Shown here in pieces: positions 1,450 to 64,000 of a DNA stretch of 64,000 nt. Source of the DNA: Paragorgia papillata (Eukaryota; Cnidaria; Anthozoa; Scleralcyonacea; Coralliidae); contig JAWNZC010000088.1 in assembly GCA_035771165.1 (NCBI GenBank), forward strand, positions 2,545,001 through 2,609,000, given 5' to 3'. A program made the position numbers and the translations under genes. Every line of letters starts with the position of its first letter. Position 1 is the stretch's first letter. Under the pieces are notes generated by a model. It saw nothing but the letters and a program-made list of their open reading frames with translations, ran no database searches and was not told the DNA's origin.

Positions 1450-2697
1450 TTACAATCCTAATTCCAATTCGTCTATTAATCGCAATATGTTAACGAACAA
1501 GCTTTCTGCTTCTGTCTCTGTGTTTGGCATCTGAAGTACCTCATCATCCATTATCATTTCCGCCAGCTCTCTGAAATGTGACGAACATCCTTTTGGCAGT
1601 GGAGCTCGTGCATGTTCTTCATAAGCGATATCGATATCATCATTACTCACAACAGTGATATAATCACGTGTGTTAGTTGACTGTGGAATAAAATATATGA
1701 CGTCAGGACGGCCACATGGCGAATTCTCATTGGTAGAAGGTCTAATGCGATGTGTGTTCCAATATGCGGCGGCCTTATGAAGATCCTTTTGTAAAAGATC
1801 CATATAACAAAATTTTAAACATTCTCTGTGAACAACGTTATCGTCACAATACAGCCCTCTGTCTATGAGATCTTTAAAATAGTTAATCCACCAGCCTGTA
1901 CATTGTCGTCGCAAAATGTTCCACCATTCCTCAATTCTTTGGTTAGCGGTTGACCTCCCGTACATGAAACTTTTTTCGCCTGCAAATGCGTCGTTAGATG
2001 ACGAGCGGAAGAAACGTTGAATACCATCAACATTTACATTTTCAGTACCGCGATCAGCACGAACAATGCGCGATGTTCCACCTAATTCTCGGACAGTAGA
2101 TAAGAAGTAATGAGCGACAATTCGAGGATCATTATTTGAATCAGATACCTCCAACCAGAGGATTCTGCGACTATACCCATCAATTGCCCCATGTATACAA
2201 AATCCAAACGGTTTTAGTTTATCATAGCCGTCCATATGCCATAGATAATTTGGACCTTTTGTGCTATATTTTCTGCGTCGTAACCGATTCCTGGATCGTG
2301 CTTCCACCCCCTCCGGATCCAGTATCTTCAAGGCTTGTCGGACAGTTGTTCTGGTAACCACTAGACCATGCTCGGTTGTCAATCGTTGATGCATTGCTTG
2401 GTAGCCAATGATGCTCCCAGAGCCACTTAGCTCACTTTCAATAGCTCGAATGACTTCGTTCAGATTCGACGGATCTTTTCTTCTTTTACATCCAAGTCGT
2501 TGAAGGATTCGTTTTAGTTGTCTTAAGCTTAGCACAAACCCATGCACATGTATTAAGAAGTTTAGGATTTCAGCGGGGGTAAAACCAAGGAAAAAATATT
2601 TCCTCACCGCTTCATCTCGGGAAAGAGCCTGTCTAGGTGGAACTGTACCGACTATACCAAAAGCCAAGTACAAAAAGAATAAAACTTTAAAAACCAT
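1450..2697 (-). CDS. rve/DDE transposase, IS3EU-like (transposon A)
   Basis: Intact 415-residue single-exon frame. An N-terminal helix-turn-helix ('GFTPAEILNFL...LSLRQLKRILQRLG') is followed by an integrase catalytic core: first Asp in 'LWHMDGYDKLKPFG', second Asp in 'VRADRGTENV', Glu in 'NQRIEEWW'. This is the D-D-E set of the retroviral-integrase/IS3 fold. It is the eukaryotic type I associate with the IS3EU superfamily; that name is from memory of the family. I start at the ATG whose A is at 2697, which gives MVFKVLFF; the open frame runs on upstream into satellite-like sequence to 3078, but that extension is satellite DNA and is not part of the gene. The first 20 residues are strongly hydrophobic and look like a signal peptide, as they do in the transposase of element C. 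It is the only undamaged transposase of the four here. Confidence 0.85.
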   Translation of the reverse strand: MVFKVLFFLYLAFGIVGTVPPRQALSRDEAVRKYFFLGFTPAEILNFLIHVHGFVLSLRQLKRILQRLGCKRRKDPSNLNEVIRAIESELSGSGSIIGYQAMHQRLTTEHGLVVTRTTVRQALKILDPEGVEARSRNRLRRRKYSTKGPNYLWHMDGYDKLKPFGFCIHGAIDGYSRRILWLEVSDSNNDPRIVAHYFLSTVRELGGTSRIVRADRGTENVNVDGIQRFFRSSSNDAFAGEKSFMYGRSTANQRIEEWWNILRRQCTGWWINYFKDLIDRGLYCDDNVVHRECLKFCYMDLLQKDLHKAAAYWNTHRIRPSTNENSPCGRPDVIYFIPQSTNTRDYITVVSNDDIDIAYEEHARAPLPKGCSSHFRELAEMIMDDEVLQMPNTETEAESLFVNILRLIDELELGL

Positions 2698-2991
2698 GCT
2701 GTCGCTAGACTCACATACGAGTAGCCAAAGAAGGGAGAAAGAGTTCAGTAAAAAGTCGCCATAAAAGTCGCCATAAAAGTGGACATAAAAGTCGCGGTTT
2801 AAAAAAAGTAGCGAGGTTTTTTGATGTCCCTTCAGAACCACCGCACGAAATCGTAAATAGCGGCCGCTATTTCCATTTTCATTTTCGTATGTATTATATC
2901 TGTCTTCTCCGAATGTTTTCCGTTTGCTTTTTTTTGGTGGGTTTTTGTATATAAATATAGATATAACATATATATATATATATATATATAT
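2698..2991. repeat. Probable subterminal repeats of transposon A and (AT)n
   Basis: Upstream of the transposase start, 2751-2797 holds about four direct copies of a 12-14-bp unit around AAAAGTCGCCAT. This matches in position the subterminal repeats of the other three elements. No TCCRTA-type right terminus was found, so the true end of A is probably lost. 2966-2990 is a TA dinucleotide run joined directly to the satellite. Confidence 0.5.
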
Positions 2992-5900
2992 GCTCACTAC
3001 CCTTGTGGAAGTTTGAGCACTCTGGGCCCATGCGCACTTCACGCTATCTGAATGTATTTCACCGATGCTTTCCCACATGCGGTTGTCACCGACGATCGCA
3101 TGTGTATAAGTAATGGGTGAAATTCATTCAGATTGTTCCAAGCTACACTGATGAGCTGTTGTACAGCGAAACACCGTGTCTGTAGATTGAACTATGTATG
3201 CTCCTTCACTTCGGTGTTGTTGAGCACTCTGTGAAGTTGCCGTGGGTACCTATTAGCGATAATGCAACGCTCACTACCCTTGTGGAAGTTTGAGCACTCT
3301 GGGCCCATGCGCACTTCACGCTATCTGAATGTATTTCACCGATGCTTTCCCACATGCGGTTGTCACCGACGATCGCATGTGTATAAGTAATGGGTGAAAT
3401 TCATTCAGATTGTTCCAAGCTACACTGATGAGCTGTTGTACAGCGAAACACCGTGTCTGTAGATTGAACTATGTATGCTCCTTCACTTCGGTGTTGTTGA
3501 GCACTCTGTGAAGTTGCCGTGGGTACCTATTAGCGATAATGCAACGCTCACTACCCTTGTGGAAGTTTGAGCACTCTGGGCCCATGCGCACTTCACGCTA
3601 TCTGAATGTATTTCACCGATGCTTTCCCACATGCGGTTGTCACCGACGATCGCATGTGTATAAGTAATGGGTGAAATTCATTCAGATTGTTCCAAGCTAC
3701 ACTGATGAGCTGTTGTACAGCGAAACACCGTGTCTGTAGATTGAACTATGTATGCTCCTTCACTTCGGTGTTGTTGAGCACTCTGTGAAGTTGCCGTGGG
3801 TACCTATTAGCGATAATGCAACGCTCACTACCCTTGTGGAAGTTTGAGCACTCTGGGCCCATGCGCACTTCACGCTATCTGAATGTATTTCACCGATGCT
3901 TTCCCACATGCGGTTGTCACCGACGATCGCATGTGTATAAGTAATGGGTGAAATTCATTCAGATTGTTCCAAGCTACACTGATGAGCTGTTGTACAGCGA
4001 AACACCGTGTCTGTAGATTGAACTATGTATGCTCCTTCACTTCGGTGTTGTTGAGCACTCTGTGAAGTTGCCGTGGGTACCTATTAGCGATAATGCAACG
4101 CTCACTACCCTTGTGGAAGTTTGAGCACTCTGGGCCCATGCGCACTTCACGCTATCTGAATGTATTTCACCGATGCTTTCCCACATGCGGTTGTCACCGA
4201 CGATCGCATGTGTATAAGTAATGGGTGAAATTCATTCAGATTGTTCCAAGCTACACTGATGAGCTGTTGTACAGCGAAACACCGTGTCTGTAGATTGAAC
4301 TATGTATGCTCCTTCACTTCGGTGTTGTTGAGCACTCTGTGAAGTTGCCGTGGGTACCTATTAGCGATAATGCAACGCTCACTACCCTTGTGGAAGTTTG
4401 AGCACTCTGGGCCCATGCGCACTTCACGCTATCTGAATGTATTTCACCGATGCTTTCCCACATGCGGTTGTCACCGACGATCGCATGTGTATAAGTAATG
4501 GGTGAAATTCATTCAGATTGTTCCAAGCTACACTGATGAGCTGTTGTACAGCGAAACACCGTGTCTGTAGATTGAACTATGTATGCTCCTTCACTTCGGT
4601 GTTGTTGAGCACTCTGTGAAGTTGCCGTGGGTACCTATTAGCGATAATGCAACGCTCACTACCCTTGTGGAAGTTTGAGCACTCTGGGCCCATGCGCACT
4701 TCACGCTATCTGAATGTATTTCACCGATGCTTTCCCACATGCGGTTGTCACCGACGATCGCATGTGTATAAGTAATGGGTGAAATTCATTCAGATTGTTC
4801 CAAGCTACACTGATGAGCTGTTGTACAGCGAAACACCGTGTCTGTAGATTGAACTATGTATGCTCCTTCACTTCGGTGTTGTTGAGCACTCTGTGAAGTT
4901 GCCGTGGGTACCTATTAGCGATAATGCAACGCTCACTACCCTTGTGGAAGTTTGAGCACTCTGGGCCCATGCGCACTTCACGCTATCTGAATGTATTTCA
5001 CCGATGCTTTCCCACATGCGGTTGTCACCGACGATCGCATGTGTATAAGTAATGGGTGAAATCCATTCAGATTGTTCCAAGCTACACTGATGAGCTGTTG
5101 TACAGCGAAACACCGTGTCTGTAGATTGAACTATGTATGCTCCTTCACTTCGGTGTTGTTGAGCACTCTGTGAAGTTGCCGTGGGTACCTATTAGCGATA
5201 ATGCAACGCTCACTACCCTTGTGGAAGTTTGAGCACTCTGGGCCCATGCGCACTTCACGCTATCTGAATGTATTTCACCGATGCTTTCCCACATGCGGTT
5301 GTCACCGACGATCGCATGTGTATAAGTAATGGGTGAAATTCATTCAGATTGTTCCAAGCTACACTGATGAGCTGTTGTACAGCGAAACACCGTGTCTGTA
5401 GATTGAACTATGTATGCTCCTTCACTTCGGTGTTGTTGAGCACTCTGTGAAGTTGCCGTGGGTACCTATTAGCGATAATGCAACGCTCACTACCCTTGTG
5501 GAAGTTTGAGCACTCTGGGCCCATGCGCACTTCACGCTATCTGAATGTATTTCACCGATGCTTTCCCACATGCGGTTGTCACCGACGATCGCATGTGTAT
5601 AAGTAATGGGTGAAATTCATTCAGATTGTTCCAAGCTACACTGATGAGCTGTTGTACAGCGAAACACCGTGTCTGTAGATTGAACTATGTATGCTCCTTC
5701 ACTTCGGTGTTGTTGAGCACTCTGTGAAGTTGCCGTGGGTACCTATTAGCGATAATGCAACGCTCACTACCCTTGTGGAAGTTTGAGCACTCTGGGCCCA
5801 TGCGCACTTCACGCTATCTGAATGTATTTCACCGATGCTTTCCCACATGCGGTTGTCACCGACGATCGCATGTGTATAAGTAATGGGTGAAATTCATTCA

Positions 5901-8900
5901 GATTGTTCCAAGCTACACTGATGAGCTGTTGTACAGCGAAACACCGTGTCTGTAGATTGAACTATGTATGCTCCTTCACTTCGGTGTTGTTGAGCACTCT
6001 GTGAAGTTGCCGTGGGTACCTATTAGCGATAATGCAACGCTCACTACCCTTGTGGAAGTTTGAGCACTCTGGGCCCATGCGCACTTCACGCTATCTGAAT
6101 GTATTTCACCGATGCTTTCCCACATGCGGTTGTCACCGACGATCGCATGTGTATAAGTAATGGGTGAAATTCATTCAGATTGTTCCAAGCTACACTGATG
6201 AGCTGTTGTACAGCGAAACATCGTGTCTGTAGATTGAACTATGTATGCTCCTTCACTTCGGTGTTGTTGAGCACTCTGTGAAGTTGCCGTGGGTACCTAT
6301 TAGCGATAATGCAACCCTCACTACCCTTGTGGAAGTTTGAGCACTCTGGGCCCATGCGCACTTCACGCTATCTGAATGTATTTCACCGATGCTTTCCCAC
6401 ATGCGGTTGTCACCGACGATCGCATGTGTATAAGTAATGGGTGAAATTCATTCAGATTGTTCCAAGCTACACTGATGAGCTGTTGTACAGCGAAACACCG
6501 TGTCTGTAGATTGAACTATGTATGCTCCTTCACTTCGGTGTTGTTGAGCACTCTGTGAAGTTGCCGTGGGTACCTATTAGCGATAATGCAACGCTCACTA
6601 CCCTTGTGGAAGTTTGAGCACTCTGGGCCCATGCGCACTTCACGCTATCTGAATGTATTTCACCGATGCTTTCCCACATGCGGTTGTCACCGACGATCGC
6701 ATGTGTATAAGTAATGGGTGAAATTCATTCAGATTGTTCCAAGCTACACTGATGAGCTGTTGTACAGCGAAACACCGTGTCTGTAGATTGAACTATGTAT
6801 GCTCCTTCACTTCGGTGTTGTTGAGCACTCTGTGAAGTTGCCGTGGGTACCTATTAGCGATAATGCAACGCTCACTACCCTTGTGGAAGTTTGAGCACTC
6901 TGGGCCCATGCGCACTTCACGCTATCTGAATGTATTTCACCGATGCTTTCCCACATGCGGTTGTCACCGACGATCGCATGTGTATAAGTAATGGGTGAAA
7001 TTCATTCAGATTGTTCCAAGCTACACTGATGAGCTGTTGTACAGCGAAACACCGTGTCTGTAGATTGAACTATGTATGCTCCTTCACTTCGGTGTTGTTG
7101 AGCACTCTGTGAAGTTGCCGTGGGTACCTATTAGCGATAATGCAACGCTCACTACCCTTGTGGAAGTTTGAGCACTCTGGGCCCATGCGCACTTCACGCT
7201 ATCTGAATGTATTTCACCGATGCTTTCCCACATGCGGTTGTCACCGACGATCGCATGTGTATAAGTAATGGGTGAAATTCATTCAGATTGTTCCAAGCTA
7301 CACTGATGAGCTGTTGTACAGCGAAACACCGTGTCTGTAGATTGAACTATGTATGCTCCTTCACTTCGGTGTTGTTGAGCACTCTGTGAAGTTGCCGTGG
7401 GTACCTATTAGCGATAATGCAACGCTCACTACCCTTGTGGAAGTTTGAGCACTCTGGGCCCATGCGCACTTCACGCTATCTGAATGTATTTCACCGATGC
7501 TTTCCCACATGCGGTTGTCACCGACGATCGCATGTGTATAAGTAATGGGTGAAATTCATTCAGATTGTTCCAAGCTACACTGATGAGCTGTTGTACAGCG
7601 AAACACCGTGTCTGTAGATTGAACTATGTATGCTCCTTCACTTCGGTGTTGTTGAGCACTCTGTGAAGTTGCCGTGGGTACCTATTAGCGATAATGCAAC
7701 GCTCACTACCCTTGTGGAAGTTTGAGCACTCTGGGCCCATGCGCACTTCACGCTATCTGAATGTATTTCACCGATGCTTTCCCACATGCGGTTGTCACCG
7801 ACGATCGCATGTGTATAAGTAATGGGTGAAATTCATTCAGATTGTTCCAAGCTACACTGATGAGCTGTTGTACAGCGAAACACCGTGTCTGTAGATTGAA
7901 CTATGTATGCTCCTTCACTTCGGTGTTGTTGAGCACTCTGTGAAGTTGCCGTGGGTACCTATTAGCGATAATGCAACGCTCACTACCCTTGTGGAAGTTT
8001 GAGCACTCTGGGCCCATGCGCACTTCACGCTATCTGAATGTATTTCACCGATGCTTTCCCACATGCGGTTGTCACCGACGATCGCATGTGTATAAGTAAT
8101 GGGTGAAATCCATTCAGATTGTTCCAAGCTACACTGATGAGCTGTTGTACAGCGAAACACCGTGTCTGTAGATTGAACTATGTATGCTCCTTCACTTCGG
8201 TGTTGTTGAGCACTCTGTGAAGTTGCCGTGGGTACCTATTAGCGATAATGCAACGCTCACTACCCTTGTGGAAGTTTGAGCACTCTGGGCCCATGCGCAC
8301 TTCACGCTATCTGAATGTATTTCACCGATGCTTTCCCACATGCGGTTGTCACCGACGATCGCATGTGTATAAGTAATGGGTGAAATTCATTCAGATTGTT
8401 CCAAGCTACACTGATGAGCTGTTGTACAGCGAAACACCGTGTCTGTAGATTGAACTATGTATGCTCCTTCACTTCGGTGTTGTTGAGCACTCTGTGAAGT
8501 TGCCGTGGGTACCTATTAGCGATAATGCAACGCTCACTACCCTTGTGGAAGTTTGAGCACTCTGGGCCCATGCGCACTTCACGCTATCTGAATGTATTTC
8601 ACCGATGCTTTCCCACATGCGGTTGTCACCGACGATCGCATGTGTATAAGTAATGGGTGAAATTCATTCAGATTGTTCCAAGCTACACTGATGAGCTGTT
8701 GTACAGCGAAACACCGTGTCTGTAGATTGAACTATGTATGCTCCTTCACTTCGGTGTTGTTGAGCACTCTGTGAAGTTGCCGTGGGTACCTATTAGCGAT
8801 AATGCAACGCTCACTACCCTTGTGGAAGTTTGAGCACTCTGGGCCCATGCGCACTTCACGCTATCTGAATGTATTTCACCGATGCTTTCCCACATGCGGT

Positions 8901-10115
8901 TGTCACCGACGATCGCATGTGTATAAGTAATGGGTGAAATTCATTCAGATTGTTCCAAGCTACACTGATGAGCTGTTGTACAGCGAAACACCGTGTCTGT
9001 AGATTGAACTATGTATGCTCCTTCACTTCGGTGTTGTTGAGCACTCTGTGAAGTTGCCGTGGGTACCTATTAGCGATAATGCAACGCTCACTACCCTTGT
9101 GGAAGTTTGAGCACTCTGGGCCCATGCGCACTTCACGCTATCTGAATGTATTTCACCGATGCTTTCCCACATGCGGTTGTCACCGACGATCGCATGTGTA
9201 TAAGTAATGGGTGAAATTCATTCAGATTGTTCCAAGCTACACTGATGAGCTGTTGTACAGCGAAACATCGTGTCTGTAGATTGAACTATGTATGCTCCTT
9301 CACTTCGGTGTTGTTGAGCACTCTGTGAAGTTGCCGTGGGTACCTATTAGCGATAATGCAACCCTCACTACCCTTGTGGAAGTTTGAGCACTCTGGGCCC
9401 ATGCGCACTTCACGCTATCTGAATGTATTTCACCGATGCTTTCCCACATGCGGTTGTCACCGACGATCGCATGTGTATAAGTAATGGGTGAAATTCATTC
9501 AGATTGTTCCAAGCTACACTGATGAGCTGTTGTACAGCGAAACACCGTGTCTGTAGATTGAACTATGTATGCTCCTTCACTTCGGTGTTGTTGAGCACTC
9601 TGTGAAGTTGCCGTGGGTACCTATTAGCGATAATGCAACGCTCACTACCCTTGTGGAAGTTTGAGCACTCTGGGCCCATGCGCACTTCACGCTATCTGAA
9701 TGTATTTCACCGATGCTTTCCCACATGCGGTTGTCACCGACGATCGCATGTGTATAAGTAATGGGTGAAATTCATTCAGATTGTTCCAAGCTACACTGAT
9801 GAGCTGTTGTACAGCGAAACACCGTGTCTGTAGATTGAACTATGTATGCTCCTTCACTTCGGTGTTGTTGAGCACTCTGTGAAGTTGCCGTGGGTACCTA
9901 TTAGCGATAATGCAACGCTCACTACCCTTGTGGAAGTTTTGAGCACTCTTGGCCCATGCGCACTTCACGCTATCTGAATGTATTTCACCGATGCTTTCCC
10001 ACATGCGGTTGTCACCGACGATCGCATGTGTATAAGTAATGGGTGAAATTCATTCAGATTGTTCCAAGCTACACTGATGAGCTGTTGTACAGCGAAACAC
10101 CGTGTCTGTAGATTG

Positions 10116-10119
<4 letters not shown>
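2992..10119 (+). repeat. 277-bp hammerhead-ribozyme satellite array, left (about 25.7 monomers)
   Basis: Head-to-tail monomers with exact 277-bp spacing: the landmark GCTCACTACCC starts at 2992, 3269, 3546 and so on. Near-identical copies differ by a few substitutions. Three separate variants (ATCCATTC at 5061/8108, AACATCG at 6217/9264, CAACCCTC at 6312/9359) recur exactly 3047 bp apart, which is an 11-monomer higher-order repeat. Each monomer contains a type I hammerhead ribozyme and an 18-bp inverted repeat. The array is bounded by TA runs on both sides. The last monomer carries an extra T near 9940. Short open frames inside (for example 4868-5113, 7915-8160) recur with the array and are not genes. 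Confidence 0.95.
3143..3185 (+). ncRNA. Type I hammerhead self-cleaving ribozyme (first of 26 in the left array)
   Basis: All parts of the hammerhead fold are present. Stem I pairs CTACA (3143-3147) with TGTAG (3181-3185), five perfect pairs. The core CTGATGA lies at 3148-3154. Stem II pairs GCTGT (3155-3159) with ACAGC (3163-3167) around loop TGT. GAA lies at 3168-3170. Stem III pairs ACA (3171-3173) with TGT (3177-3179) around CCG. C17 is 3180, so cleavage is predicted between 3180 and 3181. The short stem III is typical of animal retrozyme and Penelope-type ribozymes. Further copies follow every 277 bp, with cores at 3148 plus multiples of 277; the last core is at 10074, shifted by a 1-bp insertion. 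Two monomers (near 6217 and 9264) have TCG instead of CCG in loop III, which keeps the stem. Confidence 0.88.
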
Positions 10120-10153
<34 letters not shown>

Positions 10154-10531: not shown

Positions 10532-10579
10532 TATGGAGGGTGATGCCCGCCAATATTAATATTTACATTTTGTGTTCTA

Positions 10580-11953
10580 CAATCGTGGACAAAATTGTTG
10601 GGCCACTTTGCCGATTTTGACGATTTTCGCATAGTGTCCCAAGCACTTTTGTCCAGGATTGTCTGAAAATGACGAATTAAACAAAATCGAAGAAAAAAAC
10701 AATTTGGGGCAGCGAATCTGCGCAGTTTGCTCGAAAATGACATAAATACGCTCCCACATGCATGAACAACAAATTGTTTGTGGGGTATAGAAGGTTTGGT
10801 GAATATGCAAATTAAATAGAGCTCTCGTGCGGGTGGTACCGGTGCGGGTGGGAACTCTGCAGAGACTCTGCTCCAGTGATCCCTTCCCCATTGAGGGGGT
10901 AAGGGGGAGCAGAGATGGGGGCTCTTTTATTAAACTGTATATCTTTTGCAATGTTACAAAGCTAAAAAGCTGTGTTTTATTGAAAAATCATAAACTCGTC
11001 ATTTTCAGACAATCCTGGACAAAATTGTTGGGCCACTTTGCCGATTTTGACGATTTTCGCATAGTGTCCCAAGCACTTTTGTCCAGGATTGTCTGAAAAT
11101 GACGAATTAAACAAAATCGAAGAAAAAAACAATTTGGGGGCGGCGAATCTGCGCAGTTTGCTCGAAAATGACATAAATACGCTCCCACATGCATGAACAA
11201 CAAATTGTTTGTGGGGTATAGAAGGTTTGGTGAATATGCAAATTAAATAGAGCTCTCGTGCGGGTGGTACCGGTGCGGGTGGGAACTCTGCAGAGACTCT
11301 GCTCCAGTGATCCCTTCCCCATTGAGGGGGTAAGGGGGAGCAGAGATGGGGGCTCTTTTATTAAACTGTATATCTTTTGCAATGTTACAAAGCTAAAAAG
11401 CTGTGTTTTATTGAAAAATCATAAACTCGTCATTTTCAGACAATCCTGGACAAAATTGTTGGGCCACTTTGCCGATTTTGACGATTTTCGCATAGTGTCC
11501 CAAGCACTTTTGTCCAGGATTGTCTGAAAATGACGAATTAAACAAAATCGAACAAAAAAACAATTTGGGGGCGGCGATTCTGCGCAGTTTGCTCGAAAAT
11601 GACATAAATACGCTCCCACATGCATGAACAACAAATTGTTTGTGGGGTATAGAAGGTTTGGTGAATATGCAAATTAAATAGAGCTCTCGCGCGGGTGGTA
11701 CCGGTGCGGGTGGGAACTCTGCAGAGACTCTGCTCCAGTGATCCCTTCCCCATTGAGGGGGTAAGGGGGAGCAGAGATGGGGGCTCTTTTATTAAACTGT
11801 ATATCTTTTGCAATGTTACAAAGCTAAAAAGCTGTGTTTTATTGAAAAATCATAAACTCGTCATTTTCAGACAATCCTGGACAAAATTGTTGGGACACTT
11901 TGCCGATTTTGACGATTTTCGCATAGTGTCCCAAGCACTTTTCTCCAGGATTG
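10580..11953. mobile_element. Tc1/mariner-like tandem MITE array in the left end of B
   Basis: Four copies of an 82-bp module (starts 10580, 11010, 11441, 11872; period 430-431) are separated by three near-identical 349-bp spacers. Each module has imperfect inverted ends, CAATCSTGGACAAAA and TTTTGTCCAGGATTG. The outer ends are flanked by TA (10578-10579 and 11954-11955). The right TIR of transposon B shows the empty site with one TA, so this is an insertion with TA duplication as expected for Tc1/mariner. Spacers begin TCTGAAAATGACGA and end with its reverse complement. No transposase is encoded. Small open frames here repeat with the array and are not genes. Confidence 0.85.
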
Positions 11954-12645
11954 TAGTTTCACGTTTAGTTATTCTAGTAATGTATTATGACATTTAAGAG
12001 TCGAATTATGATATTCACGCTTTACATTCTATTCTTAAACATTCCATTGTGATGACGTCACATGATGTCTGGCACTCAGAACACGAATTCCGAACGTGAA
12101 ATTAATGATAATTTATTTCCCGCAAAAAATTGTAATTATTTCTTTCGGCTTCGAGCCCTGCTTCGAATTCGATCATGGCGGAAAACCGATCAAAATCACA
12201 CGAAGCAGCAGCGTTGTTACGACGAGCAGCCAGTATTCTAACAGAAGAATCGCATTCGACTGTTTCAGTGACAACATGAACCTTCCATTTCAACCACGAC
12301 AGCAAGAAGCAATATAAACACGAGCAGCCCTGTGGTACTTTCTACATTCACACCTTCAGTGTCCTTATCACCAGCCGACTGTCTTCCAGCTAATGAAGAG
12401 TTTCGGCGCCTCTTTGCCCCGTATAACACTGCTAATAGGGACTTTAAGCATCGACGGTTTCAGGGACGGCTACGGTGACCGGATGTTGAAATTTATCACG
12501 AGGGGACTGGGAAGTAATGCACCGTAGCCGCGAAAATTTAATTCATTAAGCAACAAGTGTATTAAAACGCTTCTTACTACGGTTGAAAATCGTATCCAGA
12601 GCTAACATTTCTTCTGAGCAAATAAAGCCTGACAAACATAACGAA

Positions 12646-14337
12646 ATGTCGTTTAGAAGAGCTAGAGAGCGGCTGCTACTTGCTTTTGATGATAATCTTA
12701 TCTCAGAAGAATAATTTTTACTGTTGTATGATCTTAATAGTTCACAAAACTTAGATTTTCCATACGAACAGTACTCGCGTTTTGACATGGACGATATGGA
12801 GAACGAGTGTTTGGCTGAGTTTCGTGTCAAAAAACACGACTTGCCGCTGCTTGCAGAAGCGTTGCAAATCCCTCCAGTGTTTATTTGTGATCAAAGAAGT
12901 GTTGTGGATGGAATGGAAGGGCTGTGTATGCTCCTTAAGAGGCTTACTTACCCCTGCAGGTATAGTGATATGTTGCCGCGATTTGGCCGTCCTGTTCCTG
13001 TGATGTGCATGGTTACAAACTGCGTTCTCGACTACATCTATGATGTCCATCATCGACGAATTTTGCAGTGGAATGCCAACATATTAAACCCAGCTGCTCT
13101 TCAATCTTATGCGAATGCTATTAGTGGAATGGGAGCTCCACTAGAAAACTGCTTTGGGTTTATAGACGGCACTGTAAGGCCCATAGCTAGACCTGGGAGG
13201 AATCAACGAGTCATGTACAATGGACACAAACGGGTCCACAGTATAAAATTCCAGTCCGTAGCAGTCCCAAATGGTCTAATTGCCAATCTCTATGGTCCAG
13301 TTGGTAGGTATATAAATTTTTCTACTATAATGTAACGCCCTAATCCCACCCCTGGCATGCTCCACTGAGTGGCGTAGCTAAGGGGGGGAGGCAATCCCCC
13401 CCCCCCCCAATGTCTCCAAGACCGTTCTTGTGAAGAGTTTAAATATGTGGAGAAACTTGTAGAGGGGGGGGGTTACAGTTGTTTTAAGGCCAAATGAGTA
13501 GACAGTGATAATGTGTTTTAAATATTACAGGCATGCATATGCTATAAATTATAAATAATTTTTTACATTTATGCTAAAGATATTCTGACATGTATCATTC
13601 TATGTTCTGGTTTGATTTCAACAAAATTATGTAACTTATGGCTTTCAAATTACTCTTAAATACTTACCTCAAAATGCATGAAATAATGTTTCAGAGACCC
13701 TAGAAATTCAAAATTTTCTGGGGGAGCATGCCCCCAGACCCCCTTAGAGATCGAGGTTCTTACCCCCCCAAAAAAAAACCAAAAACCCTGGCTCCACTTT
13801 TATTTTAAACTTTTTTTCATTTAGTTATCTGAGAAAGTTCCAATGTTTTAATACTTGCATCGGTTATATTCTAAAATATTTTTTCCCCGAAAAGACTAAA
13901 ACTTGTCTTTTTTTTACTTTTTAGAAGGGAGAAAACATGATGCAGGGATGCTTGCAGATTCTGGATTGCTAAATGCATTAGAACAAAATGCATTTTCACC
14001 GACTGGGCAACCCATGTGTGTTTATGGCGATCCAGCCTACCCACTCCGTGTTCACCTCCAGGCACCATTTCGCAATGCAGCAATGGCTCCCCAAATGCGT
14101 GAATATAATACACGAATGAGTGCAACCAGAGTATCTGTAGAGTGGTTATTTGGAGACATAATTAACTATTATAAATTTATGGACTTCAAAAAAAACCTGA
14201 AGCTTGGTTTGAGTAGCATAGGAAAACAATATGTAGTGTCAGCTATTTTGAGAAATGGCCTCACATGTATGTATGGAAACCAGACGTCTAGGTTTTTTGG
14301 GCTTGACCCCCCACGCCTTGATGAGTATTTTGCATAG
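12646..14337 (+). pseudogene. PIF/Harbinger DDE transposase (DDE_Tnp_4)
   Basis: ATG 12646 starts MSFRRARERLLLAFDDNLIS; an in-frame TAA at 12712-12714 follows, after which the same frame runs open. Exon 1 ends at donor 13303, exon 2 begins at 13925, and the phases agree so that 'YGPV' joins 'EGRKHDAGML'. Catalytic residues: Asp in 'GFIDGTVRP', Asp in 'YGDPAYPLR', Glu in 'VEWLFGD'. The early stop probably replaces a Glu codon and kills the gene unless translation begins at a later ATG (12787). The intron (13304-13924) holds a C-rich MITE-like insert, about 13371-13800, beginning AGTGGCGTAGCTAAGG. Confidence 0.85.
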
Positions 14338-14947
14338 GGATGCCTTTAAAGTTTAACTTTTGTATAAAATAATTTTTACAAATATGAAGGAAAAAGACAT
14401 ACATGAATCCAAGGCAAGCAAATATATTAAAAAGTAAACATTAACAAAACAATAAAAACATCAGTCTATAAAATGATGAAATAACAGTAAATCAACAATG
14501 GATAACCTTTGAAACACCAATACAGTAAAAACCCATCTCAGGCCAAATGTAACACCTTGCACTTATAAAAACCTCAGACTGGAATTTACAAAGTTGAGGT
14601 ACTTTAATTGTATATGTATATTGTATATTTATATTGTACTGTATCAATGGTTTCATCCTTAGTAAAATTATTAAGAACCTGTTTATGAAGAATCTATATA
14701 ACACCCTGATTTTCAATTATAGATATCAAATAATTAAGAACCTATTGGACACTGGTTTGGTAACCGGTTAGGTTACCGGTTAGGTTCGTATCAAAGGGTG
14801 TTTACTGTATGGTTAATTAATAGTAATTTACTTACACAATAATGTTTGTAAATACAGGAATATAATTTAACCTTAATTAACAATGGTAAAATGTTATGTA
14901 AGGCACAAGTAACACAGTAAAAGATGCCTTATTATGGTGTTTGTCTA
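14338..14947. other. Spacer between convergent Harbinger genes
   Basis: AT-rich. A small repeated GGTAACCGGTTAGGTTACCGG lies near 14757-14780. Otherwise I see nothing. Confidence 0.5.
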
Positions 14948-16288
14948 TTAATTTTGCTTTTTAGCTAATTGGTCTATTAACGCCAGTATTGCTGTGGTTT
15001 GTTGTTGCTGTTGCTGCATCAACAGAGTTTGCATGTTTTGAGCTTGCACTTGCTGCTGATTCATCACATGTAGCATATCTTGCATCTGTTGCTGAGATTC
15101 TGCACTTCTCTTTGCTTGCTCCTGAACTTCTGCCTTTTTTATATCTAGCTCTTTTTTTCTAATGCTTCTTTCTATTTCTGATTTTTCTCTTAAATACTCT
15201 AATGTGTCATTTCCACTTCTCCTTTTTTTTCTTACCTTCACTGTCAGCTCCTTGATCCTTTAGTCTCTTTTTGGTTTCACCTACCCTCTCCATAGCCCTT
15301 AACCTAGCTTCTTCAGCATTTGCTCTGTCTCCTTCTGTTTTCTTTCTATTAGCATCATTTCCTATGGAAAACTCCTCAGCTGCGATTTCCCTTTCACCTA
15401 TTTCCTCCAACAGCATGTCTAGCTCAGTGATCTCTGCAGATGTACCACTGCTATTTACATCTTCCTTAACTTTCTGCTTAAACTTGGTTTGTAAGAGAGT
15501 AAACCTTTCTCTGACAGACCTCTGGTTGACTCTAAACTTTAGCTCATTTGCATTATTCAATGAGTCAGCTATTAAGTTCCAATGCCTACCCCTTTCTGTA
15601 CTGCCCTTTTTAAATTTAAATGGCTCTACCACTAATATTTCTCTGCATAAGTAAACATCATGTTGTTTTGTCCACTCCATAGCTGATCTGAAAAACAAAA
15701 CAATCTTGAGTAAAATAATTAGATGTAAATAGTTGTGAAAACGGTTGTAAACTGTAAAAGAACAAAGACAATATACAAACAATTTCCTATGTACAACTAT
15801 TTATTTTTTGCATATACTAAGAAGTTTATTCTGGTGCAGTAAAAAAACAAAAGCTCGATTGCTTGATTGCTTGATCTTTATTTCTAAGGTTTTATAGCAA
15901 GAAAAGATCTTAAGTATACAGTAAAATTATGTGTATATTATATAAGTACTGTATACAAGTGCACGATACTCAGACATAGCTCCATGTCAGTTTGTCATGA
16001 TCACTCGCTTTTCAGTATTAAAAACCAGTGAATCACATAAAAAAACTCACTGCAATTTAGGCCTATCTATATAAAATGATGAGCTTATGAACATTTGTTT
16101 ATGCTGATTTGCATTAGATTCGGTACATGAAAAGTTCGACGTTTGACCTAGGCCTTAGTAACAAATCAACACAAAATACCTGATAAAATTTTTAAAAAAG
16201 ATTTTAAAGCAACTGAAAAAACAAATGTGACTTACTGACTTCGCTTGTTCGGAGTCGCACATGATGTGGACGTCGCACTAGCAGCCAT
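14948..16288 (-). pseudogene. Harbinger Myb/SANT-like DNA-binding protein
   Basis: Exon 1 (16288-16236) encodes MAASATSTSCATPNKRS and has a GTAAGT donor. Exon 2 begins at 15687, in phase, and encodes a Myb/SANT-like domain ('MEWTKQHDVYLCREILVVEP...RGRHWNLIADSLN') followed by a long charged, Gln-rich coiled coil. At about 15207-15241 the frame changes within a run of eight A (coding strand); the second frame continues to a stop at 14948 with 'NDTLEYLREKSEIERSIRKK' and a poly-Gln stretch. In Harbinger elements this protein normally helps the transposase reach the nucleus and bind the ends. The A-run shift is either an indel or a sequencing or assembly error. Confidence 0.75.
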
Positions 16289-17529
16289 GTTCTATTGGAA
16301 TTAAAGCGAAATTAAATGAATTAATCATTCATACATTTAGTGATAGCTTATATAATTTAAATTGTCCCCCCAAAAAACGACAAAAAACGACATAAACACT
16401 CACATGAATCTTGCGTAGTAGCCACAACGTCAAACTGCACGACTTGCCGTACCACACGCTCGAGCTACGGCGGACAAAGGAAAACACTGCAAACGTACGC
16501 ATGCGCACAAATACTTTTTAGAAAATATTTATTTCCGGTTGCCGTAGCCGTTCCTGAAACCGTCAATGCTTAAAGTCCCTAGTAACAGCAACCTTGTACG
16601 GCAACCTCCAGCAAAGCGTGGTCGAGCAAATTGTTGGGACCCAACACGTCGTTATAAACCGCATGATTCTTGGACGCACGAATTCTTCTGTTTGGCTAGC
16701 CATTTGCAGAAATGTACCCCAACCAGAGCTCAAATGATGAATCTGCAGAAAGCTGGTCTTGGACGCAAGCGAATTGTGTTTCAAAGAAAGGATGACTCTT
16801 CACAAGTTAAAATTAAGCTCGAAGAGGCTTATCCAAAACTTGCCACAGGAGGGGGATTTGAATTGTTAAGAAGCAGTGTGACACCCCGCGATTTGGAAGT
16901 CGTTGAGCCTCCAAAAAGTGGATATTCTGTTCCATTTTTACGTGATATCTCTGGGTTGGGCCAAGCAATTGCGTACGTTAGGCCTCTTCAGCGAGATTTA
17001 AGCACGACGGCATTGCTGCCAGAAGAAATTTGTCACGGAGACCAGACAATCGAGGTAAGAAAACTGTCATGTAAAAATTATAAATATTTGTAATTGTTTT
17101 TATTGCAAGTTTCAGTTCCCTCTATATAAGTATATTAAAATTTTGTTTGTCTTGACAATATTAAGCAGTGGCGTGGACACATCCCCCCATTTTTTTTTAT
17201 AATGTTCAGAATTCTGTAAAATCTCAATATCAGAGACTCTAGATTATTGTCACATGAATGTGCCCTTGGCCAATCACATCTCGCCAATCCCACAGTGTTG
17301 GCTTAAATTTAGAGCATGTTTTGATGGGCAGTGTACACGCTTACAGTAGGTGCCAACGACTGTATATACTGTATATACTGTATATACTGTATGTATATAT
17401 ATATATATAATAAATGCAGTATATAATATGGATTGCATTTTTTTAAGACTTCACAGGTTTAGACGTTTGACTTTGGGTTTATTTTGCATCATGAAAAAGG
17501 CAGTTACAGTACTTGTGGGAGGTTGTTGA

Positions 17530-18006
17530 GATCCTTTACAACTTTTTCGTATCTTTCTGTGTTTTCAAGATATTTCAATTTGTTTGATATGTAAATGAGA
17601 TGGTCTCTGACTTCAGGTGTGGGGTAAAATATTTTCACATGTAGTAAAACCAGTTATATCTCTAAGTTATGTTCAGTGAAATCATTTGAAACTGTGCACA
17701 TAAAAACTCCTTGCGACGCTGAACATTTCATGTTAGATATGTAAGTGATTTTGCTTTGTATGAAAATATTTTACCGCACTCCTGACGTCAGAGACCATCT
17801 CATTTACATATCAACTTGAAATATCTTGAAAATGCAGAAAGATACGAAAAAGTTGTAAAGGATCTTCTATTACAATTTTATGAGTTCTTTCAAATTGAAA
17901 TATCTTGAAAATGCAGAAAGATACGAAAAAGTTGTAAAGGATCTTCTATTACAATTTTATGAGTTCTTTCAAATTAGACAAACTTAATTTTTGTTGCCAA
18001 TCCCCT
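17530..18006. mobile_element. Palindromic MITE in a HECT-gene intron (B)
   Basis: Long inverted repeat: AGATCCTTTACAACTTTTTC near 17530 and GAAAAAGTTGTAAAGGATCT near 17848, with arms continuing through GAGATGGTCTCTGAC and its complement. The right arm contains a tandem duplication of about 77 bp (around 17816-17892 and 17893-17970). The right edge CCCCTTTAA suggests a TTAA target. No coding capacity. Confidence 0.7.
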
Positions 18007-19164
18007 TTAATATGATTTTTTGCTGGTTATGGTACCTCGTACTTTAAAAACTTACTCTTTCTCTTTAATTTTATATAGTCACCGATTCTCCCCACTGCAA
18101 CTCACCAGCATATGTAGAAAGTTCTGACTCAGATAGTGATTGGTGGGACAGCCCATTGTCCAGAAGAATAGTAGTTCCTCAAGGTTGGTTTAATTAATTA
18201 ATTTATTTACATGTACTGTATTATATAGGTGATGTCCTGTTCACAGTTCAGCATAGGCTGGTTTGAAAGAATTAGCCCTGTAAATTTACAATGAAAACAC
18301 TCTGTATAATTGATAACTTCTGTACACATGGCTATCATATTTTCTTTCTATCTTGTAGATGAAAAGCAGGATATCATTAAGCAATATCAAGCACAAATGA
18401 TAACGGAAGGGCCTTCATACCGAGTATATGTTAACAGGATGATAAGCGACTTTGCCAATGATGTATTGGCCATTTACAAAACACCAAATAAGAAACTGTG
18501 TTATCCTTTCTGTGTCAAGTTTGAAAATGAAACCTCAGTTGGTGTAGGACCTGTTCGTGAGTTTTTCAGCCTTTTGATGTCGATGATCATGAATGGCTTT
18601 CCAGTTGATGGAGAAGCAAAGCCCCTCACACTTGTATTTGAAGGAGAAGTTGATCATAAGACTCCAGTAGCCAACTCCTTGATGAGGAGTACTGGTTTTT
18701 ATAAAGCAATAGGCAGAATGATTGCACATTCTTTTTTGCATGGTGGACCACCTGTATTTGGTTTATCCAAAGCAGTCATTGAGTATTTGGCAGCAAAGGA
18801 TCATTGTGGTATTCCAAATTTGGAAGTTGCTGATATTCCCGATATTGATCTAAGGAATGCATTGACTGAGGTACAGTTAAATTTCTTCAGGGTGTGCATA
18901 ACAGGGCTGGATTTCTGGCAGGGAAAATGGGCCCCCACAAAACATTGTCTAAGGGGGGGGGGGGGGGGGCTCAACAAGATTGTCTTACAGTAAGTTACTG
19001 TATTATATAAATCTTAAATTGCAAACGAAGTAAAACTTTAATTAATTTAATTTCTTTAATTATTACAAGCTGAATGTTATGCTCACAGCATATTAGATGA
19101 GAGTTGTCTCTTTACAAGGAGTGGACTGTGGCTCTAACACATTCCTTAATCTAGCAGTATGATT

Positions 19165-58500: not shown

Positions 58501-59421
58501 AATTAGATCATCTGTACATCTGTTCTCTAATAGATAATAATAATAATAATAATAATAATAAATTGAATTTATATAGTGCACGTATCCTGGAAAGGTCCAT
58601 GACACTTTACATTAAAGTAGAAATACAATATAACGAAAAATATAAAAAATATTTAGATCAGAATGAATCTAAGAGTAGACAATCACAATGACAATGATGA
58701 TGATGATGACGATGATAGAGTTGCTTGAGATCTACCAGTTTAAAATTTAGATTAGTCATAAATAGAAAGGCAGCCAGAAAAAAAAAAGGTCAGTCCGATA
58801 TATATAACTTAATTCTTATATTGTTTCACAGGAAAGATAAAAAGATTACAGAAAAGGAATTCCCCCCAAAAGAGAAATGAGGCACTATTAGGAAGTTCAC
58901 CAATGGAAATTGACAGCGAAGGCTCAGATGATGATGAAATGTTGATTGAGGAAAATGAATTGATGGAAGAAGAGGATGAGCAGTATGAGCCATCTGATGA
59001 AAGAGAAAGTGACTCAGATGATGATGTAGATCAAGAACATAAAATGTGAGAATTCTAATTTTTTTATTAGATTGCCAAAACTGTGGTCAGGTGATCGAGG
59101 TTTATAACCCAGATTGTGAAAGAGGCCATTATTGGTGGTTATCGCTCCCCACCCCCCTGCAGCATTTTTTTTTCAATTTTAATAACTAATTACATTATTT
59201 TATTAATTTATCTTCATATATAGATTTCACGCAAGTGATGGCAACCAGAGAACAGAGCCTAAATATATTGTGTTTTTGACACAGCTTCTCATGCTTTTCA
59301 AATTTTGCCATTATTGTAAGGCAGAAAACCCATTTTTAGAGGCAATACAGTCTGGCACAATGATAAAATCAAGAGCTCTTGTATTAATACGAAGTGTCGA
59401 AAAGAAGATATATGGTGTGGC
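55513..59421 (+). pseudogene. THAP-domain protein, Kolobok-like transposase N-terminal part
   Basis: ATG 55513 gives MPTRC; a small duplication (GTGCGTGCG) shifts the frame, after which 'VVAGCSNFPNADKSVAFHQIPF' continues the C2CH THAP finger. A LINE interrupts it at about 55604; the finger resumes at about 57423 ('RRRWVDFVGLRRGKW' then 'CICSNHF'). Later exons are 57834-58038, 58306-58441 (coiled coil), 58832-59045 (very acidic, 'EGSDDDEMLIEE') and 59224 onward ('EPKYIVFLTQLLMLFKFC'). The last exon is cut by the satellite. The order THAP, coiled coil, acidic, KY-VF-LL-F-C suits Kolobok-type transposases, but a THAP-bearing host gene is possible. Not functional as read. Confidence 0.6.
55604..57420 (-). 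mobile_element. 5'-truncated CR1/L2-like LINE with reverse transcriptase
   Basis: On the - strand: 'FRPLSIL', 'YQHGFRKKHSCE', 'LLDFSKAFDIVDHEIL', 'GVPQGSILGPLLFLIYINDL' and the catalytic 'YLFADDVTLL' are in order. The C-terminal 'LQKRAARIIYG' region (56222-55743) is separated from the RT part by a stop or frame change near 56235. The 3' end is an (ATT)n-like run at 55604-55618. No endonuclease is present, so the copy is truncated. TGGA occurs at both edges as a possible short target duplication. Confidence 0.8.
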
Positions 59422-62400
59422 GTGAAGTGCGCATGGGCCCAGAGTGCTCAAACTTCCACAAGGGTAGTGAGCGTTGCATTATCGCTAATAAGTACCCACG
59501 GCAACTTCACAGAGTGCTCAACAACACCGAAGTGAAGGAGCGTACATAGTTCAATCTACAGACACGGTGTTTCGCTGTACAACAGCTCATCAGTGTAGCT
59601 TGGAACAATCTGAATGAATTTCATCAATTACTTATACACATGCGATCGTCGGTGACAACCGCATGTGGGACAGCTTCGGTGAAGTACATTCAGATAGCGT
59701 GAAGTGCGCATGGGCCCAGAGTGCTCAAACTTCCACAAGGGTAGTGAGCGTTGCATTATCGCTAATAAGTACCCACGGCAACTTCACAGAGTGCTCAACA
59801 ACACCGAAGTGAAGGAGCGTACATAGTTCAATCTACAGACACGGTGTTTCGCTGTACAACAGCTCATCAGTGTAGCTTGGAACAATCTGAATGAATTTCA
59901 TCAATTACTTATACACATGCGATCGTCGGTGACAACCGCATGTGGGACAGCTTCGGTGAAGTACATTCAGATAGCGTGAAGTGCGCATGGGCCCAGAGTG
60001 CTCAAACTTCCACAAGGGTAGTGAGCGTTGCATTATCGCTAATAAGTACCCACGGCAACTTCACAGAGTGCTCAACAACACCGAAGTGAAGGAGCGTACA
60101 TAGTTCAATCTACAGACACGGTGTTTCGCTGTACAACAGCTCATCAGTGTAGCTTGGAACAATCTGAATGAATTTCATCAATTACTTATACACATGCGAT
60201 CGTCGGTGACAACCGCATGTGGGACAGCTTCGGTGAAGTACATTCAGATAGCGTGAAGTGCGCATGGGCCCAGAGTGCTCAAACTTCCACAAGGGTAGTG
60301 AGCGTTGCATTATCGCTAATAAGTACCCACGGCAACTTCACAGAGTGCTTAACAACACCGAAGTGAAGGAGCGTACATAGTTCAATCTACAGACACGGTG
60401 TTTCGCTGTACAACAGCTCATCAGTGTAGCTTGGAACAATCTGAATGAATTTCATCAATTATTTATACACATGCGATCATCGGTGACAACCGCATGTGGG
60501 ACAACTTCGGTAAAGTACATTCAGATAGCGTGAAGTGCGCATGGGCCCAGAGTGCTCAAACTTCCACAAGGGTAGTGAGCGTTGCATTATCGCTAATAAG
60601 TACCCACGGCAACTTCACAGAGTGCTCAACAACACCGAAGTGAAGGAGCGTACATAGTTCAATCTACAGACACGGTGTTTCGCTGTACAACAGCTCATCA
60701 GTGTAGCTTGGAACAATCTGAATGAATTTCATCAATTACTTATACACATGCGATCGTCGGTGACAACCGCATGTGGGACAGCTTCGGTGAAGTACATTCA
60801 GATAGCGTGAAGTGCGCATGGGCCCAGAGTGCTCAAACTTCCACAAGGGTAGTGAGCGTTGCATTATCGCTAATAAGTACCCACGGCAACTTCACAGAGT
60901 GCTCAACAACACCGAAGTGAAGGAGCGTACATAGTTCAATCTACAGACACGGTGTTTCGCTGTACAACAGCTCATCAGTGTAGCTTGGAACAATCTGAAT
61001 GAATTTCATCAATTATTTATACACATGCGATCGTCGGTGACAACCGCATGTGGGACAGCTTCGGTGAAGTACATTCAGATAGCGTGAAGTGCGCATGGGC
61101 CCAGAGTGCTCAAACTTCCACAAGGGTAGTGAGCGTTGCATTATCGCTAATAAGTACCCACGGCAACTTCACAGAGTGCTCAACAACACCGAAGTGAAGG
61201 AGCGTACATAGTTCAATCTACAGACACGGTGTTTCGCTGTACAACAGCTCATCAGTGTAGCTTGGAACAATCTGAATGAATTTCATCAATTACTTATACA
61301 CATGCGATCGTCGGTGACAACCGCATGTGGGACAGCTTCGGTGAAGTACATTCAGATAGCGTGAAGTGCGCATGGGCCCAGAGTGCTCAAACTTCCACAA
61401 GGGTAGTGAGCGTTGCATTATCGCTCATAAGTACCCACGGCAACTTCACAGAGTGCTTAACAACACCGAAGTGAAGGAGCGTACATAGTTCAATCTACAG
61501 ACACGGTGTTTCGCTGTACAACAGCTCATCAGTGTAGCTTGGAACAATCTGAATGAATTTCATCAATTATTTATACACATGCGATCATCGGTGACAACCG
61601 CATGTGGGACAGCTTCGGTAAAGTACATTCAGATAGCGTGAAGTGCGCATGGGCCCAGAGTGCTCAAACTTCCACAAGGGTAGTGAGCGTTGCATTATCG
61701 CTAATAAGTACCCACGGCAACTTCACAGAGTGCTCAACAACACCGAAGTGAAGGAGCGTACATAGTTCAATCTACAGACACGGTGTTTCGCTGTACAACA
61801 GCTCATCAGTGTAGCTTGGAACAATCTGAATGAATTTCATCAATTACTTATACACATGCGATCGTCGGTGACAACCGCATGTGGGACAGCTTCGGTGAAG
61901 TACATTCAGATAGCGTGAAGTGCGCATGGGCCCAGAGTGCTCAAACTTCCACAAGGGTAGTGAGCGTTGCATTATCGCTAATAAGTACCCACGGCAACTT
62001 CACAGAGTGCTCAACAACACCGAAGTGAAGGAGCGTACATAGTTCAATCTACAGACACGGTGTTTCGCTGTACAACAGCTCATCAGTGTAGCTTGGAACA
62101 ATCTGAATGAATTTCATCAATTACTTATACACATGCGATCGTCGGTGACAACCGCATGTGGGACAGCTTCGGTGAAGTACATTCAGATAGCGTGAAGTGC
62201 GCATGGGCCCAGAGTGCTCAAACTTCCACAAGGGTAGTGAGCGTTGCATTATCGCTAATAAGTACCCACGGCAACTTCACAGAGTGCTTAACAACACCGA
62301 AGTGAAGGAGCGTACATAGTTCAATCTACAGACACGGTGTTTCGCTGTACAACAGCTCATCAGTGTAGCTTGGAACAATCTGAATGAATTTCATCAATTA

Positions 62401-64000
62401 TTTATACACATGCGATCATCGGTGACAACCGCATGTGGGACAACTTCGGTAAAGTACATTCAGATAGCGTGAAGTGCGCATGGGCCCAGAGTGCTCAAAC
62501 TTCCACAAGGGTAGTGAGCGTTGCATTATCGCTAATAAGTACCCACGGCAACTTCACAGAGTGCTCAACAACACCGAAGTGAAGGAGCGTACATAGTTCA
62601 ATCTACAGACACGGTGTTTCGCTGTACAACAGCTCATCAGTGTAACTTGGAACAATCTGAATGAATTTCATCAATTACTTATGCACATGCGATCGTCGGT
62701 GACAACCGCATGTGGGACAGCTTCGGTGAAGTACATTCAGATAGCGTGAAGTGCGCATGGGCCCAGAGTGCTCAAACTTCCACAAGGGTAGTGAGCGTTG
62801 CATTATCGCTAATAAGTACCCACGGCAACTTCACAGAGTGCTCAACAACACCGAAGTGAAGGAGCGTACATAGTTCAATCTACAGACACGGTGTTTCGCT
62901 GTACAACAGCTCATCAGTGTAGCTTGGAACAATCTGAATGAATTTCATCAATTATTTATACACATGCGATCGTCGGTGACAACCGCATGTGGGACAGCTT
63001 CGGTGAAGTACATTCAGATAGCGTGAAGTGCGCATGGGCCCAGAGTGCTCAAACTTCCACAAGGGTAGTGAGCGTTGCATTATCGCTAATAAGTACCCAC
63101 GGCAACTTCACAGAGTGCTCAACAACACCGAAGTGAAGGAGCGTACATAGTTCAATCTACAGACACGGTGTTTCGCTGTACAACAGCTCATCAGTGTAGC
63201 TTGGAACAATCTGAATGAATTTCATCAATTACTTATACACATGCGATCGTCGGTGACAACCGCATGTGGGACAGCTTCGGTGAAGTACATTCAGATAGCG
63301 TGAAGTGCGCATGGGCCCAGAGTGCTCAAACTTCCACAAGGGTAGTGAGCGTTGCATTATCGCTCATAAGTACCCACGGCAACTTCACAGAGTGCTTAAC
63401 AACACCGAAGTGAAGGAGCGTACATAGTTCAATCTACAGACACGGTGTTTCGCTGTACAACAGCTCATCAGTGTAGCTTGGAACAATCTGAATGAATTTC
63501 ATCAATTATTTATACACATGCGATCATCGGTGACAACCGCATGTGGGACAGCTTCGGTAAAGTACATTCAGATAGCGTGAAGTGCGCATGGGCCCAGAGT
63601 GCTCAAACTTCCACAAGGGTAGTGAGCGTTGCATTATCGCTAATAAGTACCCACGGCAACTTCACAGAGTGCTCAACAACACCGAAGTGAAGGAGCGTAC
63701 ATAGTTCAATCTACAGACACGGTGTTTCGCTGTACAACAGCTCATCAGTGTAGCTTGGAACAATCTGAATGAATTTCATCAATTATTTATACACATGCGA
63801 TCGTCGGTGACAACCGCATGTGGGACAGCTTCGGTGAAGTACATTCAGATAGCGTGAAGTGCGCATGGGCCCAGAGTGCTCAAACTTCCACAAGGGTAGT
63901 GAGCGTTGCATTATCGCTAATAAGTACCCACGGCAACTTCACAGAGTGCTCAACAACACCGAAGTGAAGGAGCGTACATAGTTCAATCTACAGACACGGT
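59422..64000 (-). repeat. 277-bp hammerhead satellite array, right, inverted (about 16.5 monomers)
   Basis: Same satellite as 2992-10119 but in reverse orientation, 277-bp period (landmark GTGAAGTGCGCATGGG at 59422, 59699 and onward). Copies are more diverged from each other than in the left array. Variants GCTTAACAAC (60347, 61455, 62286, 63394) and CGCTCATAAG (61422, 63361) repeat at 1939 bp, which is a 7-monomer higher-order repeat. The array runs off the window end. It begins inside the last exon of the THAP gene. Confidence 0.95.
59556..59598 (-). ncRNA. Type I hammerhead ribozyme (first of 16 complete in the right array)
   Basis: Identical on the - strand to the motif at 3143-3185, with predicted cleavage between 59561 and 59560. 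Copies follow every 277 bp to 63711-63753, then a partial one at the window end. One monomer has a change in stem I (GTGTAACTTGG near 62640), which should weaken or break one stem I pair. Confidence 0.88.

Follow-up and report, generated by a model that had tools for sequence, protein, structure and literature searches.

The described systems closest to the repeat reported here are the non-LTR retrozymes of metazoans, which were found in Acropora, Mytilus and axolotl (PMC7229834) and consist of tandem repeats of ~170–400 nt with type I hammerheads and abundant circles (PMC7229834, PMC7761336; these and the papers below are cited for the parts of their text available to us). The primer, the template, the target and the partner of these retrozymes are left open in the available parts of both papers, and according to the available part of PMC7761336 the metazoan repeats show no conserved motif pointing to machinery. 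For Nematostella, 15-bp duplications are described (PMC4918200). The LTR retrozymes of plants differ in having type III hammerheads, LTRs, 4-bp duplications and a length of 600–800 nt (PMC4918200), and Penelope-like elements differ in encoding a reverse transcriptase (RT) together with GIY-YIG and in carrying a minimal hammerhead (PMC11167929).

We analysed a stretch of 64,000 nt from the octocoral Paragorgia papillata (hereafter the window), which contains two arrays of a 277-bp unit (Table 1), and compared these with related loci in the whole assembly. Where tested, the unit fits a metazoan non-LTR retrozyme by type (PMC7229834): it has a hammerhead of type I in which core and helix III are complete, repeats within the range of ~150–450 bp, and dispersed insertions without LTRs that we read as retrotransposed. 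Also shared with metazoan retrozymes are the lack of coding, the self-paired RNA and the presence of Penelope-like elements with a minimal hammerhead in the same genome (PMC7229834). The GC content of the unit (46.9%) lies below the 50% given in the text of PMC7229834 and above the 45% given in its figure legend. Circles and cleavage were shown for the metazoan retrozymes in the available part of PMC7229834 and are predicted for the 277-bp element, which differs in that its 3' end is nearly fixed, that (TA)n flanks it, that a candidate motif for priming can be seen and that it bears a signature of one-unit templates. Our main reading, to which we assign a probability of about 0.8, is that the unit is a non-autonomous animal-type retrozyme copied from RNA circles into (TA)n and later expanding into satellites.

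Table 1. Features of the window, with positions counted from its first nucleotide
Feature	Position	Strand	Details
HECT with uninterrupted rva_4 integrase	40–504 and 1450–2703	HECT +, integrase −	same pairing as in the element at 39353–55284
(TA)n microsatellite	2948..2991	.	adjoins 5' end of left array
Left 277-bp retrozyme array	2992..10119 (TRF: to 10125)	+	about 25.7–25.8 units, 26 complete hammerhead motifs
First hammerhead, 58 nt	3135..3192	+	GUUC..CUACA/UGUAG..GAAC, CUGAUGA, GCUGU/ACAGC, GAA, ACA/UGU, C at cut
Predicted cleavage, GUC^UGUAG	3180..3181	+	recurs every 277 nt (278 once)
TATGTAT (RNA UAUGUAU, unit 13–19)	3193..3199	+	directly 3' of hammerhead; candidate (TA)n-primer annealing site
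(TA)n microsatellite	10119..10148	.	adjoins left array 3' end; junction GATTGAACTA/TATATA, 2,791 times in genome
Complete 16.3-kb DNA transposon	10532–26809		inverted ends start TATGGAGGGTGATGCC; 6-bp duplication AGACTT on both sides
Three (CTCTCCCC)n arrays	27379–31004		between them copies of one ~0.84-kb segment (99.6%)
Helitron-like frames	31096–33674		weak Helitron_like_N (below cut-off), PIF1/AAA helicase
28S rRNA fragment	38832–38953	−	Rfam 89.1 bits; among minisatellites, beside integrase frame
Second large element	39353–55284		bounded by inverted 20-bp minisatellite arrays
1.9-kb segment duplication	43480–47008		direct overlap, 99.9% identity
Right 277-bp array	59420..64000	−	TRF 16.5 copies in window, 16 complete hammerhead motifs

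The predicted ribozyme and the two arrays

A sequence-only reading of the window had proposed that every copy of the repeat carries a complete type I hammerhead, and this holds for 26/26 copies of the left array and, on the other strand, 16/16 copies of the right array. The pattern CTGATGA-13nt-GAA with its flanks, in which CTGATGA, stem II, GAA, stem III and the C at the cut site all stand in place, was found 26 times on the plus and 16 times on the minus strand. The 5 bp given for stem I in that reading are present, but the helix is longer, with 4 further pairs (GUUC/GAAC) beyond an internal loop that reads CAAG/AUU in the sequence. A more general descriptor (CTGANGA, stem II, GAA, stem III closed by an A-U pair, H, and stem I of at least 4 bp) matched exactly these 42 places in the window (5/5/3 bp), with no motif outside the two arrays and 0 matches after dinucleotide shuffling of the window (200 shuffles). 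The same 57-nt hammerhead sequence is found in 39/42 copies; two of the remaining three are altered in loop III, and in the third a C to T change turns one pair of stem I into G-U, so the pairing is kept in all three. The window repeat is thus one that carries a predicted self-cutting ribozyme in every copy. The order is that of type I with stem I open, whereas plant-type LTR retrozymes have a type III hammerhead in their LTRs. The sequence has both an internal loop in helix I and a loop II. Stem III (ACA/UGU) carries a CCG loop, and the stem III segment is self-complementary at 8/9 positions, so that two units could together form a double hammerhead. A search for a minus-strand hammerhead found no CTGANGA on the antisense strand of the left consensus.

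No Rfam hammerhead model matched anywhere in the window at the gathering threshold, although the sequence-only reading had named such a match among its checks. A search with 721 bases of the left array returned nothing at E ≤ 1; one with 76 bases returned HH9 (18.8 bits, E 0.0086, below its gathering value of 52) and, also sub-threshold, RAGATH-1-hammerhead (15.4 bits, E 1.1). In the right array Hammerhead_3 matched with 16.1 bits (E 1.7, below its gathering value of 48.5). Apart from Rfam, every class feature that we tested fits, which supports the earlier proposal of a type I hammerhead tandem repeat akin to animal retrozymes and potentially giving 277-nt circles. Imposing the hammerhead fold takes 2.4 kcal/mol for the left circle and 5.8 kcal/mol for the right one (figures without tertiary contacts). 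The monomer RNA is stably self-paired (z −5.48 left, −3.38 right), but such a fold is not special here, since 3 of 60 random window segments (mean z −0.82) reach z −5 or below.

Across the window and the loci examined genome-wide we collected 250 hammerhead motifs, allowing at most 8/58 letters changed, a limit that misses worse copies. The core is intact in 243/250 and the core plus all 17 pairs in 223/250; excluding both window arrays, the counts are 181/188 and 161/188, respectively. Purifying selection on the hammerhead was considered and not adopted, the depletion of substitutions inside the motif being unclear (18/121 vs 25.3 expected, p 0.059; p 0.087 with CpG changes excluded).

According to TRF, the two arrays stand in opposite orientation. 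Their consensus units differ at 7/277 sites, and the left array keeps a spacing of 277 nt with one 278-nt unit. The right array goes on past the window edge to a total length of at least 29.9 kb, and its 3' end lies at unit 141. Both arrays are heterogeneous with variation in blocks: the left has a higher-order period of 11 units (lag-11 pairs identical in 12/13, p 0.002) and the right one of 7 units (lag-7 pairs identical in 6/8, 0/5000 shuffles), which calls for DNA-level expansion after insertion. No ORF of at least 110 aa is confined to either array, although an ORF at 1450–3078 (−) extends 87 bases into the left one; the unit holds no ORF encoding RT or GIY-YIG as a Penelope-like element would, and Pol III A and B boxes (strict consensus, either strand) were not found. 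Exact 26-mer scans of viral and genome contig collections, from which the window's own genome was perhaps left out, gave 0 matches, as did blastn against phages. The idea that the arrays are terminal repeats of one large element is disfavoured: the unit positions at which they end are not the same, and between them sits an inverted-repeat transposon (10532–26809) that is complete and has ends of its own.

Insertions across the genome and their (TA)n junctions

A two-unit query against the whole assembly (618 Mb, 473 contigs) gave 482 candidates, 40 of which were scored. The resulting 41 array loci include the left window array, part of the right array and 39 others outside the left array; as the 39 come from 40 scored of 482, they represent the loci most closely related to the left array. 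At 37/41 loci the 3' end falls shortly after the hammerhead (unit 11–19) and is followed by (TA)n (35/39 with both duplicate loci removed, L011 of L010 and L017 of L014), and 29/41 loci read GATTGAACTATATA exactly. Of the four exceptions, L018 has its 3' end at unit 2, likewise in TA; L030 ends elsewhere without (TA)n and so shows neither hallmark; the right window array ends at unit 141, also without (TA)n; and the 3' end of L046 lies outside the sequence examined. A TA run of at least 10 was found within 40 nt of 37/41 3' ends and 30/41 5' ends, as compared to 0.16% of 5,000 random 40-mers of the window and 6.7% of 1,845 locus-flank positions. The genome contains 2,791 exact matches to the 23-base junction CTGTAGATTGAACTATATATATA and 0 to its reversed-letter control. 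The two arrays are the long tail of thousands of insertions whose 3' end is near-fixed in (TA)n. Target-site duplications are invisible inside (TA)n.

After the hammerhead the unit reads GAAC-TATGTAT-GCTCC, and UAUGUAU in its RNA can form 6 Watson-Crick pairs and 1 G-T wobble with a (TA)n DNA end. The primer's own letters would take the place of TATGTAT and give TATATAT, the reading of most junctions; L038 retains TATGTAT ahead of its TA run, as with a start a few nucleotides further on. We infer that UAUGUAU could pair with a (TA)n primer and set the 3' end.

For the 5' side we sampled 40 junctions, hand-picked from listed places on contigs C1–C9 with close neighbours avoided and conditioned on the exact junction. 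Insertions of less than one unit make up 29/40 (shortest 0.12 unit), a further 10/40 span 1.01–1.86 units, and one spans at least 5.47 and runs past the sequence examined; these lengths are single best alignments, and that of L077 is perhaps understated, with more hammerheads upstream than its alignment spans. The 5' ends vary among the sampled insertions. TA of at least 6 nt stands directly at 22 of the 39 visible 5' junctions, which makes these testable, and 15/22 share TA microhomology of at least 2 nt with the unit (16% expected, p 6.6e-8). Target-primed reverse transcription, as known from LINEs, leaves insertions that are fixed at the 3' end, truncated to varying degrees at the 5' end and marked by microhomology at the 5' join. 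As all three are seen here, the insertions bear the signature of this process, and we are highly confident that the arrays arose by retro-insertion of a retrozyme. The insertions examined, including all 40 sampled ones, cross the hammerhead cut site (for these 40 the search pattern itself requires one nucleotide of crossing), which excludes a cleaved linear monomer as their template.

A bias of 5' ends towards unit 1–146 was seen in the arrays chosen by similarity (32/35, with the cut-off set afterwards and L011, L017, L046, L030, L048 and L015 dropped from the 41 loci). It was given up as a selection effect, because the junction sample shows no such bias (23/39, p 0.27).

Partner enzyme, template and target

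The enzyme that mobilises the retrozyme may belong to a Penelope-like element rather than to a LINE, a view that is compatible with our main reading and that we rate somewhat below even odds. GIY-YIG has at least 104 matches in this genome (150/540 candidates scored). Two loci chosen for long frames look Penelope-like: L093 matches both RVT_1 and GIY-YIG, and L092, 67% alike to L093 in DNA, has GIY-YIG as its one match at E ≤ 0.001. In both (2/2, by pattern) a short hammerhead-like core CTGATGA..CGACGAAAG lies 3' of the frame. Penelope-like elements share with the 277-bp element an internal 3' start, an AT-rich target and a type I hammerhead near the start site (PMC11167929). The co-existence of Penelope-like elements and retrozymes proposed in PMC7229834 holds here, while the target of the family that was checked does not fit. 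A search with the Penelope-like 3' region gave at least 58 matches (40/147 candidates scored), and in one family (L094–L113, of which L104 and L106 share one downstream flank) 0/20 3' ends have a TA run of at least 10 within the next 80 nt. This family thus differs from the retrozyme in its own 3' end outside (TA)n and in an optional tail of ~35 nt (GATATGCTGCTGAAGGACAACTTCAT...), which is present on 12/20 3' ends (11 by exact string), absent from the others, and resembles the tail described in PMC11167929. The Penelope-like copy of L093 lies inside a retrozyme unit. We rejected a template-switch chimera in this case, as the copy is flanked on both sides by an exact 10-nt direct repeat (TTCATTCAGA) and a nested insertion is simpler.

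The variants within insertions bear on the template. In 21 insertions with 3–8 complete units each (84 units), derived variants were found in all units 29 times, in one unit 26 times and in some units 5 times, as compared to means of 0.13, 129 and 14 when units were shuffled among insertions. Four of the 21 have no derived variant; not included were the duplicates L011 and L017, the long or incomplete L015, L029, L046, L048 and left window array, and all loci that hold at most 2 complete units. Adding 2-unit insertions (32 insertions, 106 units) changed the counts to 48, 57 and 5, and the distance within an insertion was 0.0053 vs 0.0149 after shuffling (0/5000). Since variants stand in all units or in one, and rarely in some, each insertion appears to have been copied from one unit and then mutated. 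Such repeated copying of one unit fits a circle, and would fit a linear multimer only if the source array were uniform; the genome-wide pattern adds evidence for circular templates, in which we have moderate confidence.

We regard it as unlikely that the same retroelement used uncleaved linear multimeric transcripts, with internal initiation fixing the 3' end as in Penelope-like elements. Uncut RNA would likewise cross the cut site, a Penelope-like element begins reverse transcription internally, and its hammerhead mutants insert in vitro all the same (PMC11167929). This template, however, demands a uniform source array of its own for each insertion, as 11 of the 29 all-unit variants are absent from every other locus examined (205 units in all), and both long window arrays are heterogeneous in blocks.

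That the insertions target (TA)n is held with good confidence. Rather than being a target already in place, the 3' (TA)n might have been added by the enzyme as a tail, in the manner of LINEs that end in simple repeats. In favour of such a tail, 11/39 sampled insertions with a visible 5' end have no 5' TA run of at least 10, and all have 3' TA, which the search pattern demands; against it, the 5' TA run is present in the other 28/39, and 29/41 arrays have TA on both sides, which leaves an enzyme-made tail quite improbable. MuTAnT and Micron, two TA-microsatellite transposons, likewise have most insertions flanked by (TA)n on both sides, but they are DNA transposons without an RNA step (PMC4486113).

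Ordinary satellite spread at the DNA level, by extrachromosomal circles and unequal exchange with the hammerhead incidental, would account for the higher-order periods and for the right array ending outside (TA)n, but we consider it very improbable, since the joining of DNA circles is expected to be random in phase at either side and not to give 2,791 identical 3' junctions with 5' truncation down to 0.12 unit in the sample.

For the retrozyme copied from circles, a route can be proposed. Array transcripts would be cut at each hammerhead into 277-nt RNAs, and ligation of their ends, for which the host probably supplies the enzyme, would close these into circles (after PMC7229834). A borrowed reverse transcriptase would then prime on nicked (TA)n, the 3' end of which would pair with UAUGUAU after the hammerhead and fix the 3' end of the insertion; the near-fixed 3' end and the TA flanks are the basis for this step. 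Travelling round the circle, mostly for less than one turn and at times for several, the enzyme would leave the varied 5' ends and place the variants of its template in all units, a pattern that is observed. TA microhomology, statistically supported in the sample, would join the 5' end to the microsatellite. A few multi-unit insertions would finally grow by DNA-level exchange into satellites like both window arrays, with the 11- and 7-unit higher-order pattern as the basis. With plant LTR retrozymes this route would share the ribozyme, the circular RNA (here predicted) and the borrowed reverse transcriptase (PMC4918200). The full account seems to us somewhat better than an even bet: RNA circles generated by the ribozyme would be reverse transcribed turn after turn, starting from nicked (TA)n annealed to the 7-nt site directly behind the ribozyme, and would thereby make thousands of insertions and found satellite DNA.

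If true, it would be a complete, sequence-defined route from a 277-nt RNA circle to satellite DNA, and a concrete origin of a satellite by reverse transcription of RNA circles followed by DNA-level expansion. As compared to known retrozymes, what is new is how clearly the insertions are marked, by a single main 3' end, a single target and templates of one unit. For animal retrozymes, this genome supplies a start site that hardly varies, a target, and a sequence pattern indicative of circular templates. In the literature that we searched (mainly open-access articles) we found no animal retrozyme that targets (TA)n or has a fixed 3' end.

Other elements in the window

The 16.3-kb transposon contains pieces of DDE_Tnp_4 and of rva_4 integrase, and its frame at 18310 is HECT-like by eye with no Pfam match. 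Its left inverted repeat is broken by a 431-bp × 3.2 array and its right one by a 41-bp × 3 array. The second large element includes a HECT frame (50988, +) and integrase-like frames (53721–54999, −), for which Pfam gave a weak HTH_21 match only; the segment 54065–54525 shows 66% similarity at the DNA level with the rva_4 frame at 1800–2261. Among the articles listed by a literature search on the pairing of integrase and HECT, none was fitting. Perhaps these elements are members of one transposon family in which an integrase is combined with a domain of ubiquitin ligases. The integrase has 1,238 relatives, with Montipora capricornis at 58% among the best 120 listed.
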